This document shows positions 5,278 to 17,959 of a DNA stretch of 64,000 nucleotides, piece by piece. This DNA comes from Alicyclobacillus sp. (GTDB lineage Bacteria; Bacillota; Bacilli; Alicyclobacillales; Alicyclobacillaceae): the NCBI GenBank assembly GCA_023511295.1, contig JAIMBT010000008.1, forward strand, positions 62,001 to 126,000, in the 5' to 3' direction. The notes beneath the pieces were generated by a model. The model made no database searches. It was not told where the DNA came from and saw only the letters and a program-made list of their open reading frames with translations. The translations under genes and the position numbers were made by a program. Position 1 is the stretch's first letter. Every line of letters starts with the position of its first letter.

Positions 5278-5485
5278 AGAGGCCATGCAACAACTGGAGG
5301 AAACTGTCCGGAAACTGGAGTCCGGCGAACTGCCGTTGACGGACTCCATCGCCGCGTACAAGCAGGCCATGACGTTGGTGCAATTCTGCCGGAAACAGCT
5401 GGATGAAGCCGAGTTCCAGATTCAGCAGCTGGTCGAACGGGACGATGTCGTCACCGGTGAGCCGCTCCCGGGGGTTGGGCCATGA
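5243..5485 (+). CDS. xseB: Exodeoxyribonuclease VII small subunit
   Basis: A small coiled-coil protein (about 80 residues) with the family signature LTFEEAMQQLEETVRKLESG and a short second helix. I chose TTG 5243 because AAGGAGAG lies seven bases upstream; an in-frame ATG at 5225 would start inside that ribosome site. Either start overlaps the end of xseA, so translation is probably coupled. The stop overlaps the ispA start by four bases (ATGA). Confidence 0.88.
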   Translation: MTSESKRDLTFEEAMQQLEETVRKLESGELPLTDSIAAYKQAMTLVQFCRKQLDEAEFQIQQLVERDDVVTGEPLPGVGP

Positions 5486-6372
5486 GAGACGTACCGGACG
5501 TTGAGGCGTATCTCGCCAGTCGGCGCGAACTCGTGGATGAGGCCTTGGCACGGGCGTTTCCCAAAGATGCGGAGCCCGGCGTATTGTTCGACGCCATGCA
5601 GTACAGTCTCCTGGGGCCAGGCAAGCGGTTGCGACCGGTCCTGTGCTTGGCTGTTGCAGAGACGTTCGACGTACGACCGGAGGTGGTCGTTCCGGCCGCC
5701 ATCGCGTTGGAAATGGTGCACTGTTACTCCCTCATCCACGATGATCTCCCGGCGATGGACGACGACGACCTTCGGCGTGGCCGCCCGACGAACCATAAAG
5801 TGTACGGCGAAGCGACCGCCCTCCTTGCAGGCGATGGACTGTTGACCCACGCCTTTACGGTCCTGTCGCGTCCGCTCCCAGTGCCGGCGGAGCGGCAGCT
5901 GGCCATGATTCGTGCGCTCGGTGAAGCCGCAGGACCGTTCGGGATGGTGGGTGGCCAGCAGGCAGACCTGTCCGCCGAGGGAACGTCCGGAACGGAATCG
6001 CAACTGGAGTTCATTCATTTGCGCAAGACGGCCAGGTTGTTACAGGCGGCCTGCGTCATGGGCGGTTTGTTTGCAGACTTGCCGGACGCTCACCGGAGCG
6101 CGTTATCGAAGTACGGGGAGCATCTCGGGCTGGCGTTTCAAATGATGGACGACTGGCTCGATGTGACTGCCACCACCGAAGCCTTGGGGAAGACGGCCGG
6201 ACGGGATGCGGCCCTCGACAAGTTCACGTACCCTCGGTTGGTTGGTCTGGATGCGACGTTGGAGCGGGCGAACCGTCACGTCGCGGATGCCTGCAGGCAG
6301 TTGGAACAGCTAGACGTATCGGCCGACATTCTGCACGGGCTCGCGCACTATGTGGTGGCCCGGCGGCATTGA
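5482..6372 (+). CDS. ispA: Geranyl/farnesyl diphosphate synthase (polyprenyl synthetase)
   Basis: A 296-residue trans-isoprenyl diphosphate synthase. The first Asp-rich motif is DDLPAMDDDDLRRG and the second is MMDDWLDVT, with GPGKRLRPVL near the front. It condenses IPP with allylic diphosphates in the cytoplasm, feeding quinones, undecaprenyl and hopanoid-type lipids. It is the last gene before the long RNA-coding stretch; oapA and dxs follow, which links the OLE RNA locus to isoprenoid synthesis. Confidence 0.93.
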   Translation: MRDVPDVEAYLASRRELVDEALARAFPKDAEPGVLFDAMQYSLLGPGKRLRPVLCLAVAETFDVRPEVVVPAAIALEMVHCYSLIHDDLPAMDDDDLRRGRPTNHKVYGEATALLAGDGLLTHAFTVLSRPLPVPAERQLAMIRALGEAAGPFGMVGGQQADLSAEGTSGTESQLEFIHLRKTARLLQAACVMGGLFADLPDAHRSALSKYGEHLGLAFQMMDDWLDVTATTEALGKTAGRDAALDKFTYPRLVGLDATLERANRHVADACRQLEQLDVSADILHGLAHYVVARRH

Positions 6373-6473
6373 TGCGGACTGGGGCCGTTCGCGAAGTTGG
6401 GTGAACGTAGTGGAATTTCCACACATTTTGTCTCCGGCCCGGTGCCGCGAATGCGGAAACGTCCGCGCACATA

Positions 6474-6482
6474 TGGTACAAT
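6474..6482 (+). promoter_or_regulatory. Extended -10 promoter ahead of the OLE RNA
   Basis: TGGTACAAT (TG at 6474-6475, hexamer TACAAT at 6477-6482) fits an extended -10 element. The -35 position (about 6454-6459) has no good hexamer. It would start transcripts near 6489, matching the expected 5' end of the RNA. Read-through from ispA is also possible. Confidence 0.6.
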
Positions 6483-6489
6483 ATACGAT

Positions 6490-7100
6490 GTATGTGGGTG
6501 GCGCAGTATTCTAGTCGACCTCCAATCCGGAAGGCGGGGCTAAAAATCCGCTAAAGGGCACATCGATGAAGTTCCTGGTGTTGGCTTGGGGAGCCCAGCC
6601 CTGGGTTGATACTGGGAGTTAAGGAAGGTGGGCAACGCGCAATGGCATGCGCGAGCTGACCCAGCTTCCGCGGAGGCCCAAGTTCGTGGCCCGCTACGAT
6701 ACGGGGTTATGGCTTGGGGTATGAACCTGCATGCGGAGACCATCTGTGTGCAGCGTAGCCTGCCTTGAGCGGGACTGAAGGATTGCGGGAAACAGGCGGC
6801 GACGCCCAGGCCAGGGCAGACCGCTGGTGCCGCATGAAATCAGCCAACGCAAAAGAGGCTATGGATTGGTGAAGGTCGTCGCGGAAAACGCCTAGACTGT
6901 TCGCCAGAGCGTGGCTCTTTGGGGATTATAGTGTGGACTCAGTGGTAATCCAGTCCGGTCGATGGCAACACGGCCGAGGTGTGCATAAAGGGAAACCGCC
7001 GGCGTGGCGACATGCCGGTGCGCGCTTGGGAAAACCTACTGGACCTAAGCCACAGCGTTTACCCAAAGAGCTGCCACCCTTTCATTTGTTGTCCCGCCCT
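6490..7100 (+). ncRNA. ole: OLE RNA (ornate, large, extremophilic RNA), approximate limits
   Basis: The 743-base interval between ispA and oapA holds no credible gene: open frames in it are short, lack ribosome sites and show no family-like composition. Its size (about 610 nt after the promoter), its position immediately after ispA and immediately before a gene for the OLE-associated membrane protein OapA, and the following dxs match the published arrangement of OLE RNA in Bacillus halodurans and other Firmicutes. Complementary stretches such as GCGGCGACGCCCAGGCC and many purine-rich single-stranded-looking segments fit a structured RNA. OLE forms a membrane ribonucleoprotein with OapA and is linked to tolerance of cold, alcohols and magnesium in B. 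halodurans. I could not fold it; the ends are estimates. Confidence 0.85.
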
Positions 7101-7116
7101 GGGGGTTATCGTACAT

Positions 7117-7701
7117 ATGAAACGAAAATCCGTTCGCGGCGCCCTTCCATTCATTTTCTCCGTCGCCGCGCTCTCCTTTCCCCTCAGTGGTGTGTTTGAC
7201 ACATCCACTATTTTTTTAGGCGAAGTCCCGTGGTTTGTCGGTGCCATTGTCGTCGTCTTCATCGTCATCATCGGAGCTGCGTTTGACATGCTCGGCGTCG
7301 CGGCTGCAGCCGCACGAGAAACACCCTTTCACGCCATGGCGTCGAAGCGCGTATTTGGAGCGAAACGCGCCATCTTCATTGTCCGCAATGCGGAGAAGGT
7401 GTCGAGTCTAGCCAGCGACGTCGTGGGCGACATCGCCGGCGTCCTCAGTGGCGCAGGTGCCCTTGCGGTCGCGGTTCAGTTGAGTGCGGCCATCGGAGCC
7501 CAGGGTTGGATCCACGAGTTTCTGGTCATCCTATTGACGGCGTTTACGACGGCCCTGACGGTTGGGGCGAAAGCAGCGGGCAAAACCTTGGCCATCCATT
7601 CGCCGACCCCTATCGTATTGACCGCTTCTAAGGTACTGGAAACCTTCCTCTTATGGAAACGGCCCCGGACCGCGCGCGGCGCCAAACGTTCCCCCAATTA
7701 A
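7117..7701 (+). CDS. oapA: OLE-associated membrane protein OapA
   Basis: A 194-residue integral membrane protein; ATG 7117 follows GGGGGTTATC in the tail of the RNA region. Hydrophobic segments lie at about residues 9-25, 35-62 (VGAIVVVFIVIIGAAFDMLG), 112-130 and 136-158. Conserved-looking acidic/glycine motifs AAFDMLGVAAAA and SDVVGDIAGVLSG lie in or next to the membrane parts. Length (about 21 kDa), membrane character and location directly after the OLE RNA gene match OapA, which binds OLE RNA as a dimer and brings it to the membrane. Identification rests on this combination of features; no database search was possible. Confidence 0.87.
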   Translation: MKRKSVRGALPFIFSVAALSFPLSGVFDTSTIFLGEVPWFVGAIVVVFIVIIGAAFDMLGVAAAAARETPFHAMASKRVFGAKRAIFIVRNAEKVSSLASDVVGDIAGVLSGAGALAVAVQLSAAIGAQGWIHEFLVILLTAFTTALTVGAKAAGKTLAIHSPTPIVLTASKVLETFLLWKRPRTARGAKRSPN

Positions 7702-7844: not shown

Positions 7845-9776
7845 GTGGGTGACCGTCGCGATCGGCGCTGCCGTGTACGTCCAAGAGCGAGGTGTTGCGT
7901 TACGCTGCTCTCATCCATTCAGAATCCCGGCGACCTGCGACGGTTGTCGGAGGCACAACTGGTTCAATTGGCGGCGGAAGTGCGAGCGTTTCTCATCGAG
8001 TCGGTGTCACAGACGGGCGGTCATTTCGGCGCGAACCTGGGCGTTGTCGAGTTGACGATTGCGCTTCACCGCGTGTTCGACAGCCCACGGGATCAGATCG
8101 TCTGGGACGTGGGGCATCAGGCGTACGTTCACAAGATGTTGACCGGTCGCATGCGCGAGTTTGCCTCCCTGCGTAAATGGCGCGGCATGGCCGGCTTTCC
8201 AAAGCGGGGCGAAAGCCCGCACGACGTGTTCGGGGTGGGGCACGCCAGTACGTCCATTTCGGCGGCGCTCGGTATGGCCGTGGCGCGCGACCTTGCGGGA
8301 CAGCACCACCACGTGGTGAGCGTGATCGGCGACGGGGCTCTGACCGGCGGCATGGCGATGGAGGCCCTCAACCACGCAGGTGACGTTGGGAGTGACCTGC
8401 TGGTTATCCTGAACGACAATGAAATGTCCATCTCTGAGAACGTTGGCGCCATGTCCCAGTACTTGACGAGGCTGCGGACAGATCCCGCCTACTCGCGCGC
8501 GAAGGCAGAGCTGGAGTCCGTCTTAAAACGTCTCCCGGGGATTGGGAAGCCGCTGACCAGCACGTTGGAGCGCGTCAAGGACTCGATGCGCCATCTGGTG
8601 GTACCGGGACTGTTGTTTGAAGGGTTCGGATTCAAGTATCTGGGTCCCGTCGACGGGCATGACCTGCCTGCGCTGGTCCATGTGCTGGAAGACGCGAAGC
8701 AGCTTCGGGGGCCCGTGCTGTTACACTGTGTGACCCAAAAGGGCAAGGGTTATGCATCGGCTGAAGCGGCCCCGGACAAGTGGCACGCTTGGCCATCCCC
8801 GGCGAAGACCCCTGGCCCGCCGTCCTACAGCCAGGTCTTCGGCGAGACCATGATAGAACTGGCACGCCAGAACCAGAAAGTGGTTGCGGTCACCCCTGCG
8901 ATGCTGTCGGGGTCCGGACTGACGACGTTCCAAAAGACGTTTCCTCGCCGCACGTTTGATGTCGGCATCGCGGAGCAGCATGCGGCGACCTTCTGTGCGG
9001 GTCTGGCGGCTGCGGGCCTGCGTCCGGTACTGGCAATTTACTCCACGTTTCTACAGCGGGCCTATGACCAAGTCATTCACGACATTTGCATTCAAAACTT
9101 GCCGGTCGTGATTGCGATTGACCGGGCCGGAGTGGTGGGGCCGGACGGCGAAACGCACCAGGGCGCCTTCGACATCGCGTTCCTGCGCACGGTCCCAAAC
9201 ATCGTCATTCTCGCTCCGAAGGACGAGAATGAGATGCGGTTGATGCTGTACACGGCCCTGCAACAGCCTGGCCCTGTGGCCGTTCGGTATCCGCGCGCGG
9301 ACGGGTCAGGCGTGCCCATGGAACCGTTCCGAGAGATCCCGATTGGGACGGCCGAGGTCCTCCGGACGGGGGAGCAATTGGCCATCTGGGCGATTGGGCC
9401 GATGGTGGAGGTCTGTCTGCGGGCGGCGGACATCCTGGCCACGCAACACGGCGTGGAAGCGGCAGTGGTGAATGCGCGGTCGGTGAAACCTCTCGACGAG
9501 TCGCTGTTGCTGGCTCACGCCGAGCGCATGCCCATTCTCACAGTGGAGGAGGGCGCGGTCATGGGCGGATTTGGCTCGGCTGTGATGGAGACGTTAACGG
9601 CCCGCGGGCCGTGCGTGGCGGTGGCGCGGATGGGCCTGCCAGATCGCTTCATCGAGCACGGCACGCGGTCTGAGCAACTGGCCGACGCCGGTCTCACGGA
9701 GGCAGACGTGGTGCGGGTTGCCCTCGCGCTGTTCGAGGAGGCGGAGCCGGCCACCGGGTCGGCGGTGAGGTCGTGA
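7845..9776 (+). CDS. dxs: 1-deoxy-D-xylulose-5-phosphate synthase
   Basis: A thiamine diphosphate enzyme making DXP from pyruvate and glyceraldehyde 3-phosphate, the first MEP-pathway step. Clear motifs: GGHFGANLGVVELT, DVGHQAYVHK, GDGALTGGMAMEALNHAG (diphosphate/Mg site), LGPVDGHD, VGIAEQHAATFCAGLA and DRFIEHG. The start is uncertain. Homologues begin right at LLSSIQNPGDL (7905), but the only in-frame codon there is CTG (7905) or ACG (7902), with GAGGTG ten bases upstream; the nearest conventional start is GTG 7845, used here, which adds about 20 residues unlike the family. ATG 7749 would add more. tlyA overlaps the stop by four bases. Confidence 0.93.
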   Translation: MGDRRDRRCRVRPRARCCVTLLSSIQNPGDLRRLSEAQLVQLAAEVRAFLIESVSQTGGHFGANLGVVELTIALHRVFDSPRDQIVWDVGHQAYVHKMLTGRMREFASLRKWRGMAGFPKRGESPHDVFGVGHASTSISAALGMAVARDLAGQHHHVVSVIGDGALTGGMAMEALNHAGDVGSDLLVILNDNEMSISENVGAMSQYLTRLRTDPAYSRAKAELESVLKRLPGIGKPLTSTLERVKDSMRHLVVPGLLFEGFGFKYLGPVDGHDLPALVHVLEDAKQLRGPVLLHCVTQKGKGYASAEAAPDKWHAWPSPAKTPGPPSYSQVFGETMIELARQNQKVVAVTPAMLSGSGLTTFQKTFPRRTFDVGIAEQHAATFCAGLAAAGLRPVLAIYSTFLQRAYDQVIHDICIQNLPVVIAIDRAGVVGPDGETHQGAFDIAFLRTVPNIVILAPKDENEMRLMLYTALQQPGPVAVRYPRADGSGVPMEPFREIPIGTAEVLRTGEQLAIWAIGPMVEVCLRAADILATQHGVEAAVVNARSVKPLDESLLLAHAERMPILTVEEGAVMGGFGSAVMETLTARGPCVAVARMGLPDRFIEHGTRSEQLADAGLTEADVVRVALALFEEAEPATGSAVRS

Positions 9777-10639: not shown

Positions 10640-10789
10640 TTGCGAGCAGGAAGCGGCTCCAAGCAGCCAGATCTCGGTCCGCCGCCCGCGCTGGGCCGGC
10701 GTACCAAGGAATCGCGCGGTCGCTGTGGAATGATCCTCTAACGAGCACAGTTGGCGTTGGCTTGGTGCAACGGGAGGAGATGCCGCACG

Positions 10790-11302
10790 GTGCAATGGCA
10801 GGATGCAATCGCAGTTTTGATTGGGTGCGCGTTGGTATTCCTCGTGGCTCGGTCCATGTTCAGTCAATGGGGCGGCGGGAAAGAGACGCCGATTCGCGGA
10901 AAACTCCGGGCCGCGTCCGAGTGGTTGGAAGAGAACGATTACCGCATCCTGCGCGTCCGTCAACGGGCGGAATGGACAGGGTACTACGACGCGCGGGCGT
11001 TTCGCAAGCAGTTGATTGCAGACTTTATCGTGCGAAAGGGCGCGCGTACCTACGCGGTCAAGGTGATGAACGCACGGGAGCAGGAAGTGAGTGGACAGCG
11101 GATGCGCGACCAGTGGCAGCCGCTCGTTGAGGCCTTTCACGTGAACGGCGTGCTGCACATCGACCTCGACCGCGAACAAGTCCACGAGATTGACTTCAGT
11201 ATCCAGTCGCCGCGGTACGTGGTCTGGCAGAAACTGGCCAACCGCGCGCTGTGGATGTTGCTCGGCGCGCTCGCCGCGTTGTTGTGGCTGCACGGGCGGT
11301 AG
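10790..11302 (+). CDS. Hypothetical protein with N- and C-terminal membrane segments
   Basis: A 170-residue protein; GTG 10790 is chosen because GGGAGGAG (10772-10779) lies ten bases upstream. A hydrophobic segment at about residues 6-20 (AVLIGCALVFLVARS) and another at the C-terminus (LWMLLGALAALLWLHG) flank a soluble domain. The soluble part contains RKQLIADFIVRKGARTYAVKV, which resembles the core strands of restriction-endonuclease-like folds, but the usual ExK pair reads KxM, so catalysis is unlikely. It sits between tlyA and nadK, where B. subtilis has argR/ahrC after its methyltransferase gene. The family is not recognised and the function is unknown. Confidence 0.7.
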   Translation: MQWQDAIAVLIGCALVFLVARSMFSQWGGGKETPIRGKLRAASEWLEENDYRILRVRQRAEWTGYYDARAFRKQLIADFIVRKGARTYAVKVMNAREQEVSGQRMRDQWQPLVEAFHVNGVLHIDLDREQVHEIDFSIQSPRYVVWQKLANRALWMLLGALAALLWLHGR

Positions 11303-17582: not shown

Positions 17583-17834
17583 CGCAACCGCCGGATGGGT
17601 ACCAAAGGAGCCCACGGCGGCACGCTGTCCCGACAGACGCCCTATCGGCAGAATCCTTCATAAATTTACATCCTCAAGCGACACCCTTCGCAGCGCCTCC
17701 CTCTTATACTTCTAAAAAAGTTGTCATACAAGTCCAACCGGTCCACGTAGACTGCTAGCAAGCTGATGGAGGGCCCGTCCGTACCGGAACCGGCCGCGAG
17801 GAGGTTCTGGTACCCAACCATTCTGGACGTGTAT

Positions 17835-17948
17835 CCAGTTCGCGCCGAATCGAAAGAGCGGGGGATTTCTCTTTGGGGTGAACGAGTCTCGACTCCAGGG
17901 CCACCCTTGGGCCCGAACCCGTCAACTAACCTCGCAGGCGTGCAAGGG
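17835..17948 (+). promoter_or_regulatory. c-di-AMP riboswitch (ydaO/yuaA type)
   Basis: The conserved core of the ydaO aptamer is present: GGGGGA followed by TTGGGGTGAA (17870-17882 region), then CCCGAACCCGTCAACTAACC (17912-17931) and CTCGCAGGCG. The 5' part CGCGCC can pair with GGCGTGC at the 3' end as stem P1. It lies directly upstream of a LysM/lytic transglycosylase gene, the classic target class (cell-wall hydrolases). No terminator hairpin fits between the aptamer and the start codon; the 3' P1 strand abuts the AAGGGGG ribosome site, so control of translation is likely. The fine boundaries are estimates. Confidence 0.87.
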
Positions 17949-17959
17949 GGAAAACTCGC

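Follow-up and report, generated by a model that had tools for sequence, protein, structure and literature searches.

Background

The OLE RNA has been found in 2,822 genomes of Bacillota in a GTDB-wide survey (PMC11332333). Work on Halalkalibacterium halodurans, together with cryo-EM of clostridial complexes, has described an abundant RNA which forms dimers, is kept at the membrane through dimers of the protein OapA, is folded with the proteins OapB and OapC, and aids the cell in coping with stress and divalent metals. The H. halodurans cluster has been reported as one polycistronic RNA (PMC12265935).

Several parts of the RNA have been assigned a role. An A-rich loop in P4 takes part in dimer contact (PMC12286853, PMC12265935), and a palindrome in L9.3 forms a kissing-loop dimer contact (PMC12286853). 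P2 has been described as belonging to the OapA site, and an anti-Shine-Dalgarno mimic in P6 of the H. halodurans RNA as the site of bS21 (PMC12054373), while OapB contacts P12.2/P13 (PMC9723947). Twelve base pairs are given as typical of P3 and P3.1, an arm proposed to cross the membrane, and the cryo-EM models were interpreted as P3 passing through the membrane with domain 2 on the far side (PMC12265935). RNAs named 'variant 1' are often without the P13 loop (PMC11332333).

For OapA, a DxxxD motif has been called distinctive and the loss of a proline relative to CNNM proteins has been published (PMC11332333); mutation of the DxxxD motif yields the PM1 protein (PMC9723947). Bacteria with OLE are described as being without a CNNM/MpfA-type exporter, and both this anticorrelation and its exceptions are published (PMC11332333). 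In the CNNM protein MtCorB, Glu111 binds Mg2+; a pi-helical turn contains this residue together with Ile112 and Pro114, and all three are unchanged from archaea to humans (PMC8242095).

Among the papers covered by our search none named OLE with Alicyclobacillus; an earlier mention is possible in the OLE papers of 2006, 2011 and 2012. The occurrence of OLE in both the largely acid-loving Alicyclobacillaceae and in alkaliphiles leaves the membrane-spanning proposal of 2025 open to a direct test, as any part of the RNA outside the cell would be exposed to a widely different pH in each.

Identification of the OLE RNA and its locus

We analysed a stretch of 64,000 nucleotides from a member of the Alicyclobacillaceae, here called the window. 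An earlier note, made from the sequence alone, had proposed a full OLE locus (OLE RNA plus OapA), and named as checks a search with the OLE covariance model and a comparison of the adjoining membrane protein with OapA; lack of both similarities, or translation of the region, would speak against it. Both checks were positive, and neither similarity was lacking. The genes of the locus are as follows.

5482..6372, + strand: ispA (farnesyl diphosphate synthase), upstream neighbour; NF045485, 342.9 bits
6482..7093, + strand: OLE RNA gene (ole); RF01071, 509.6 bits, E 1.5e-146, whole model 1-616
7117..7701, + strand: oapA, membrane protein of 194 amino acids; 60-76% identical to the OLE-adjacent protein of family relatives
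7902..9776, + strand: dxs, downstream neighbour; TIGR00204, 828.8 bits; start codon probably ACG 7902 (or CTG 7905)

The covariance model was matched end to end, far above its curated cut-off of 50 bits, and this was the sole Rfam match with E<=1 between positions 5400 and 8200. None of 14 control genomes gave a match to RF01071. When the whole window was scanned with all Rfam families, two matches exceeded the cut-off, OLE and a c-di-AMP riboswitch (17833-17955, RF00379, 82 bits). That the gap between ispA and oapA is an OLE RNA locus with OapA can be regarded as practically certain. The possibility that the gap is coding was rejected: Pfam gave no match for the one open reading frame scanned inside it (6933-7199), and the sequence forms the base pairs of an RNA. 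The RNA is of the full-length type and does not belong to variant 1 or 2, P7, P8 and the end of P13 being kept: no long stretch of the model is absent, and the P13 loop is present and conserved. Mature OLE RNA probably spans from about 6489 to about 7080-7093.

The gene order is ispA-ole-oapA-dxs, so that OLE adjoins both oapA and isoprenoid genes, and the placing of dxs after the membrane protein gene in the earlier note was confirmed. The gene-free stretch which it had given as 743 bases is real; with ispA ending at 6372 and the ATG of oapA at 7117, the gap (6373-7116) has a length of 744 bases. The open frame of oapA extends 5' as far as GTG 6979, which falls within the OLE RNA. We place the start at ATG 7117 instead, because M1 and K2 are invariant in a protein alignment of 12 OapA sequences.

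Regarding dxs, the codon aligned with the ACG at 7902-7904 is an ATG, TTG or GTG start in 45 of 46 outgroup genes, and the same position is ACG in 22 of 29 distinct family sequences, approximately 7-8 bases 3' of a GAGGTG/GGGGTG ribosome site. The nearest canonical in-frame start upstream in the window is a GTG 20 codons away. From these alignments ACG may be a conserved start codon; the alternatives would be CTG/TTG in the following codon or, for some species, a GTG further 5'. Further downstream, an open reading frame of 183 amino acids (10751-11302) between tlyA and nadK has no significant family match. In Pusillibacter nadK is followed by argR, which in the window's genome lies on another contig.

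Distribution in the Alicyclobacillaceae

The description of the organism in the earlier note as Alicyclobacillus-like was correct, since the window's family, the Alicyclobacillaceae, includes the Alicyclobacillus species; no other member of its genus was among the genomes compared. OLE was found in 40 of 41 Alicyclobacillaceae genomes. In the 41st genome (G026), 104 bases separate oapA from the end of its contig of 11,004 bases, and the final 74 bases of the OLE 3' end could still be matched there. A true loss was therefore rejected for this genome, as the contig ends inside OLE. Thus, a complete OLE-OapA locus is the rule in the family, and the window copy is an ordinary member of a known RNA family. 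None of these findings is at odds with the GTDB-wide survey (PMC11332333). The expectation of the earlier note that every further lineage contributes covariation data is reasonable, but the gain is modest.

Two loci outside the family deserve mention. A 504-kb record of Pusillibacter faecalis labelled as a conjugative plasmid carries OLE (L045, 3127-3791, 399.8 bits) along with oapA, dxs, tlyA, nadK and argR, and may be a second chromosome because it carries such genes. In Caenibacillus caldisaponilyticus oapA is present twice, in one case adjoining OLE and in the other on another contig (L081, 2995-3570; L139). The copy on the contig without OLE is 63% identical to the window OapA, above the other non-family OapA proteins sampled. 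We considered it as an orphan oapA without OLE and rejected this, as the genome does contain OLE, with the other oapA beside it.

Secondary structure of the RNA

The Rfam structure of OLE provides 158 pairs which can be mapped on the window, and omits the helices joining both ends and both domains. These helices, P1, P2, P3 and P3.1, were sought in the window sequence outside the RF01071 annotation and comprise 27 pairs in total. Their names were inferred from the text of PMC12265935, which describes the published model. The elements of the window RNA are listed below.

6496..6502, + strand: P1 5' strand GGGUGGC, pairs with the 3' strand GCCACCC at 7073..7079
6504..6514, + strand: P2 5' strand CAGU-AUU-CUAG, pairs with CUAG-ACUG at 6892-6899
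6516-6520, + strand: P3 CGACC, pairs with GGUCG at 6874-6878
6522-6528, + strand: P3.1 CCAAUCC, pairs with GGAUUGG at 6863-6869
6529..6862, + strand: domain 1 (P4 to P9), Rfam structure
6540..6547, + strand: P4 loop CUAAAAAU, A-rich dimer contact, conserved at 90% or more in family and outgroups
6809..6812, + strand: L9.3 palindrome GGCC, by sequence
6879..7079, + strand: domain 2, 3' part (P10 to P15 and the 3' strands of P2 and P1)
6964..6969, + strand: P12.2 loop GGCAAC (mostly GGnGAC in the family)
7006..7011, + strand: P13 loop GGCGAC, OapB site, present and conserved

P1 is paired in 39/39 family rows, a G-C pair being replaced by A-U in two rows and a C-G pair by U-A in one, and more pair types are seen in 55 outgroup rows. 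P2 is paired in nearly every row and gives no test of covariation, because it is almost invariant. P3 and P3.1 (5' strands 6516..6528) together form 12 pairs, with many compensatory changes and nearly fixed lengths.

Over 39 family RNAs, 99.5% of the cells of the four added helices were paired and 11 of the 27 pairs were compensated; in a control where the partners were slid by one or two bases, 29-40% were paired and 2 compensated. The 158 Rfam pairs, which cover both domains, were 91.0% paired in the same 39 RNAs with 63 compensated, and the corresponding control, slid by 1 or 2, gave 39-44% paired and 24-34 compensated. The 55 outgroup OLE RNAs gave similar results for pairing and compensation. 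P1, P3 and P3.1 constitute an independent test of the OLE fold, because they are absent from the covariance model used for detection.

Both dimer-contact elements that were checked, the A-rich P4 loop and the L9.3 palindrome, are present in the window OLE. A CCUCC anti-Shine-Dalgarno mimic on the 3' strand of P6 (6655-6673), where strand and helix are our interpretation of the text of PMC12054373, is missing in the window, in 39/39 family RNAs and in 54 of 55 outgroup RNAs.

A probable promoter of ole

Upstream of the RNA the following element was found, at exactly the coordinates proposed in the earlier note.

6474..6482, + strand: extended -10 TGG-TACAAT of ole, by sequence; transcript start expected near 6489

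In 39 family loci, T-R-T-G-N-TATAMT is the sole conserved feature of a stretch upstream of OLE that otherwise cannot be aligned; the window departs from the family TATAAT with TACAAT. At the corresponding position, the pattern TGnTAnnnT was present in 39/39 family loci (shuffled sequences: mean 3.1, maximum 8) and in 55/55 outgroup loci (mean 8.8, maximum 16), and the stricter TGnTATAnT in 38/39 and 45/55, respectively. The motif mostly lies 18-27 bases 5' of the conserved AGUAUUCUAG, and further away in some family members.

No promoter was detected 5' of ole by a sigma-70 scan that demands both hexamers, since a -35 element is absent there. A TTGNN-like -35 at a distance of 17-18 bases was seen in 30/55 outgroup loci, against only 1/39 family loci. 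Judged from the conservation of the -10 element in family and outgroup loci relative to shuffled sequences, ole very probably has its own transcription start.

OapA and its relation to the CNNM family

The protein beside OLE had been described as having 194 residues and four membrane spans. The length agrees with the open reading frame at 7117-7701, and the AlphaFold2 model (mean pLDDT 83.6) shows four long helices, as would be expected of four spans. Its assignment to OapA is borne out by the identity to family relatives, the DxxxD motif and a CNNM-like fold. The window OapA is 36% identical to the protein beside OLE in Pusillibacter. Across 33 OapA proteins from family and outgroups, no variation is seen at D101 and D105 (of DxxxD), K152, G155 or K156.

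Sequence searches place the protein at a distance from characterised families: the Pfam score against CNNM (PF01595) is 18.8 bits, below the cut-off of 28.4, and neither the NCBIfam models nor the sequences of solved structures gave a match. At the level of the predicted structure, the model matches the membrane domain of MtCorB (7m1t) with Z 14.6 and rmsd 2.2 over 130 residues, and that of TpCorC too, and the first unrelated row has Z 7.9 and rmsd 11.8. Foldseek gave weak E-values for the model (best 0.012). The predicted match to CorB repeats the published OapA-CorB comparison in a new lineage.

When OapA was aligned by hhalign and MAFFT, K152, G155 and K156 fell on the Glu, Pro and Lys of the GE-x-x-PK motif of MpfA; hhalign of OapA with three MpfA sequences gave a probability of 0.7% and was used only alongside the other alignments. 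Counting back from where the structural match ends (OapA 176 / MtCorB 135) puts K152 at residue 111, i.e. in the same register, where the fold of OapA is predicted and the comparison tool returns aligned ranges, not residue pairs. In this remote alignment OapA does not carry the GE-x-x-PK motif of a CNNM protein, having K152 and G155 instead of Glu and Pro. The Mg2+-ligating Glu of CNNM proteins would accordingly correspond to an invariant Lys in OapA, a change which we did not find described in the text consulted. If the alignment is right, it is unlikely that OapA carries Mg2+ in the manner of CNNM proteins, because the ligating Glu aligns with this Lys. The residue is a single position to mutate when asking whether OapA transports metal.

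The other components of the complex are encoded elsewhere in the genome. OapB (E 1.2e-18 with OapB of PDB 7k9b) lies between adk and infA, and OapC (E 3.8e-19 with the YbxF-type protein of PDB 3v7e) between rpoC and rpsL, and a gene for bS21 is present (PF01165, 74.1 bits). A search for a CNNM/MpfA-type Mg2+ exporter in the window's own genome gave no CNNM match. A full CNNM-CBS protein was found in 5/41 family genomes, one in each, and all five also carry OLE. The exclusion between OLE and CNNM is thus not strict, and these genomes fit the published anticorrelation and its exceptions.

Membrane topology and alternative explanations

Many Alicyclobacillaceae are acidophiles, and the acidophily of the window's organism is taken from its family. 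We compared 39 Alicyclobacillaceae RNAs with 15 loci from presumed alkaliphiles, 13 of them chosen by name (Alkalicoccus, Alkalihalobacterium, Evansella, Alteribacter, Natronobacillus etc., two being from the same species) and the remaining two, Bacillus MAGs (L118, L122), added by judgement; the growth pH of both groups is general knowledge of the taxa. Columns at least 97% identical over 94 OLE RNAs make up 43.0% of domain 2 versus 37.7% of domain 1. Among columns fixed in both groups, the base is the same in 99/100 for domain 2 and 143/146 for domain 1. An exposed domain would meet acid in one group and alkali in the other, yet domain 2 is conserved like domain 1, which argues for a cytoplasmic domain 2. 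This is an argument and not a proof, as the cell wall may buffer.

The 12 pairs of P3 and P3.1, nearly kept in length in the family while their sequence varies freely, resemble a fixed-length spacer, and this, as well as the cryo-EM interpretation, favours an integral membrane RNA in which P3 crosses the bilayer and domain 2 is outside the cell (PMC12265935). We nevertheless consider such an arrangement unlikely, in view of the conservation of domain 2, with a single column fixed differently between Alicyclobacillaceae and alkaliphiles, and of OapB, which binds domain 2, is encoded inside a ribosomal-protein cluster and has no obvious signal peptide by eye. It is very improbable that the gap is only a long, riboswitch-like, cis-acting leader of oapA-dxs rather than a free RNA. 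The gap does immediately precede oapA and dxs, and between the OLE end and the oapA start no terminator-like site was found; however, P1 closes the molecule end to end, one of the two Caenibacillus oapA genes is not preceded by OLE, and mature OLE exists as an abundant RNA of its own in H. halodurans (PMC12265935). Finally, OLE could be a ribozyme, a c-di-AMP synthase having been speculated upon, with OapA merely as an anchor. Size and conservation of OLE are like those of large ribozymes (PMC11332333), and the c-di-AMP riboswitch 11 kb downstream in the window is weak circumstantial evidence at most, whereas no catalysis by OLE is reported in the literature covered, and OapA almost always accompanies OLE and resembles a transporter domain. 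We rate a ribozyme as quite unlikely.

The best explanation, and in our judgement a reasonably probable one, is that the ole-oapA locus encodes a membrane-held RNA-protein device in which the whole RNA is cytoplasmic. By analogy with the H. halodurans and clostridial RNAs, the window OLE would be abundant, would dimerise and be anchored at the membrane by OapA dimers, and would fold with the help of OapB and OapC and contribute to tolerance of stress and divalent metals.

For the working of this membrane-held device we propose that OapA may form the membrane part of a CNNM-like machine where the OLE RNA replaces the CBS and CorC domains of MpfA, an idea put forward in PMC11332333. The fold of the RNA, lying entirely on the cytoplasmic side, would report the ion or energy status to OapA, which could either use another arrangement of charges (D101, D105, K152) or sense and gate rather than transport. 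We hold the mechanism as such, with OLE in place of the CBS/CorC domains and OapA as an altered CNNM fold, only tentatively, at somewhat less than even confidence. Its most specific form is rather doubtful: OLE as the regulatory half and OapA, with Lys for Glu, as a protein half that would sense or gate without CNNM-type export of Mg2+, the RNA being wholly intracellular.

Comparison with known systems

What the analysis adds beyond known OLE loci is modest, and consists of the conserved -10 promoter, for which a prior description in the OLE papers of 2006-2012 is possible, the Glu/Lys alignment and the conservation of domain 2.

In comparison with MpfA, CorB and CorC (PF01595), OapA shares the fold of the membrane domain according to the predicted model. 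It differs in being without the CBS and CorC domains, and in having Lys and Gly aligned with the Glu and Pro of GE-x-x-PK. Compared with known OapA proteins, gene position, length, the DxxxD motif and the absence of the CNNM proline are the same; the window OapA is 38-48% identical to the outgroup OapA proteins sampled, and this sequence divergence is the only difference.

The OLE RNA itself is higher in G+C than the outgroup OLE RNAs sampled, like the whole Alicyclobacillaceae family. With the OLE of H. halodurans and Clostridium acetobutylicum it shares all model positions, P1-P3.1, the A-rich P4 loop, the GGCC of L9.3, the P13 loop for OapB and the position by oapA and dxs, and it differs from them in the P12.2 loop, which is GGCAAC, and in a -10 element reading TACAAT instead of TATAAT.
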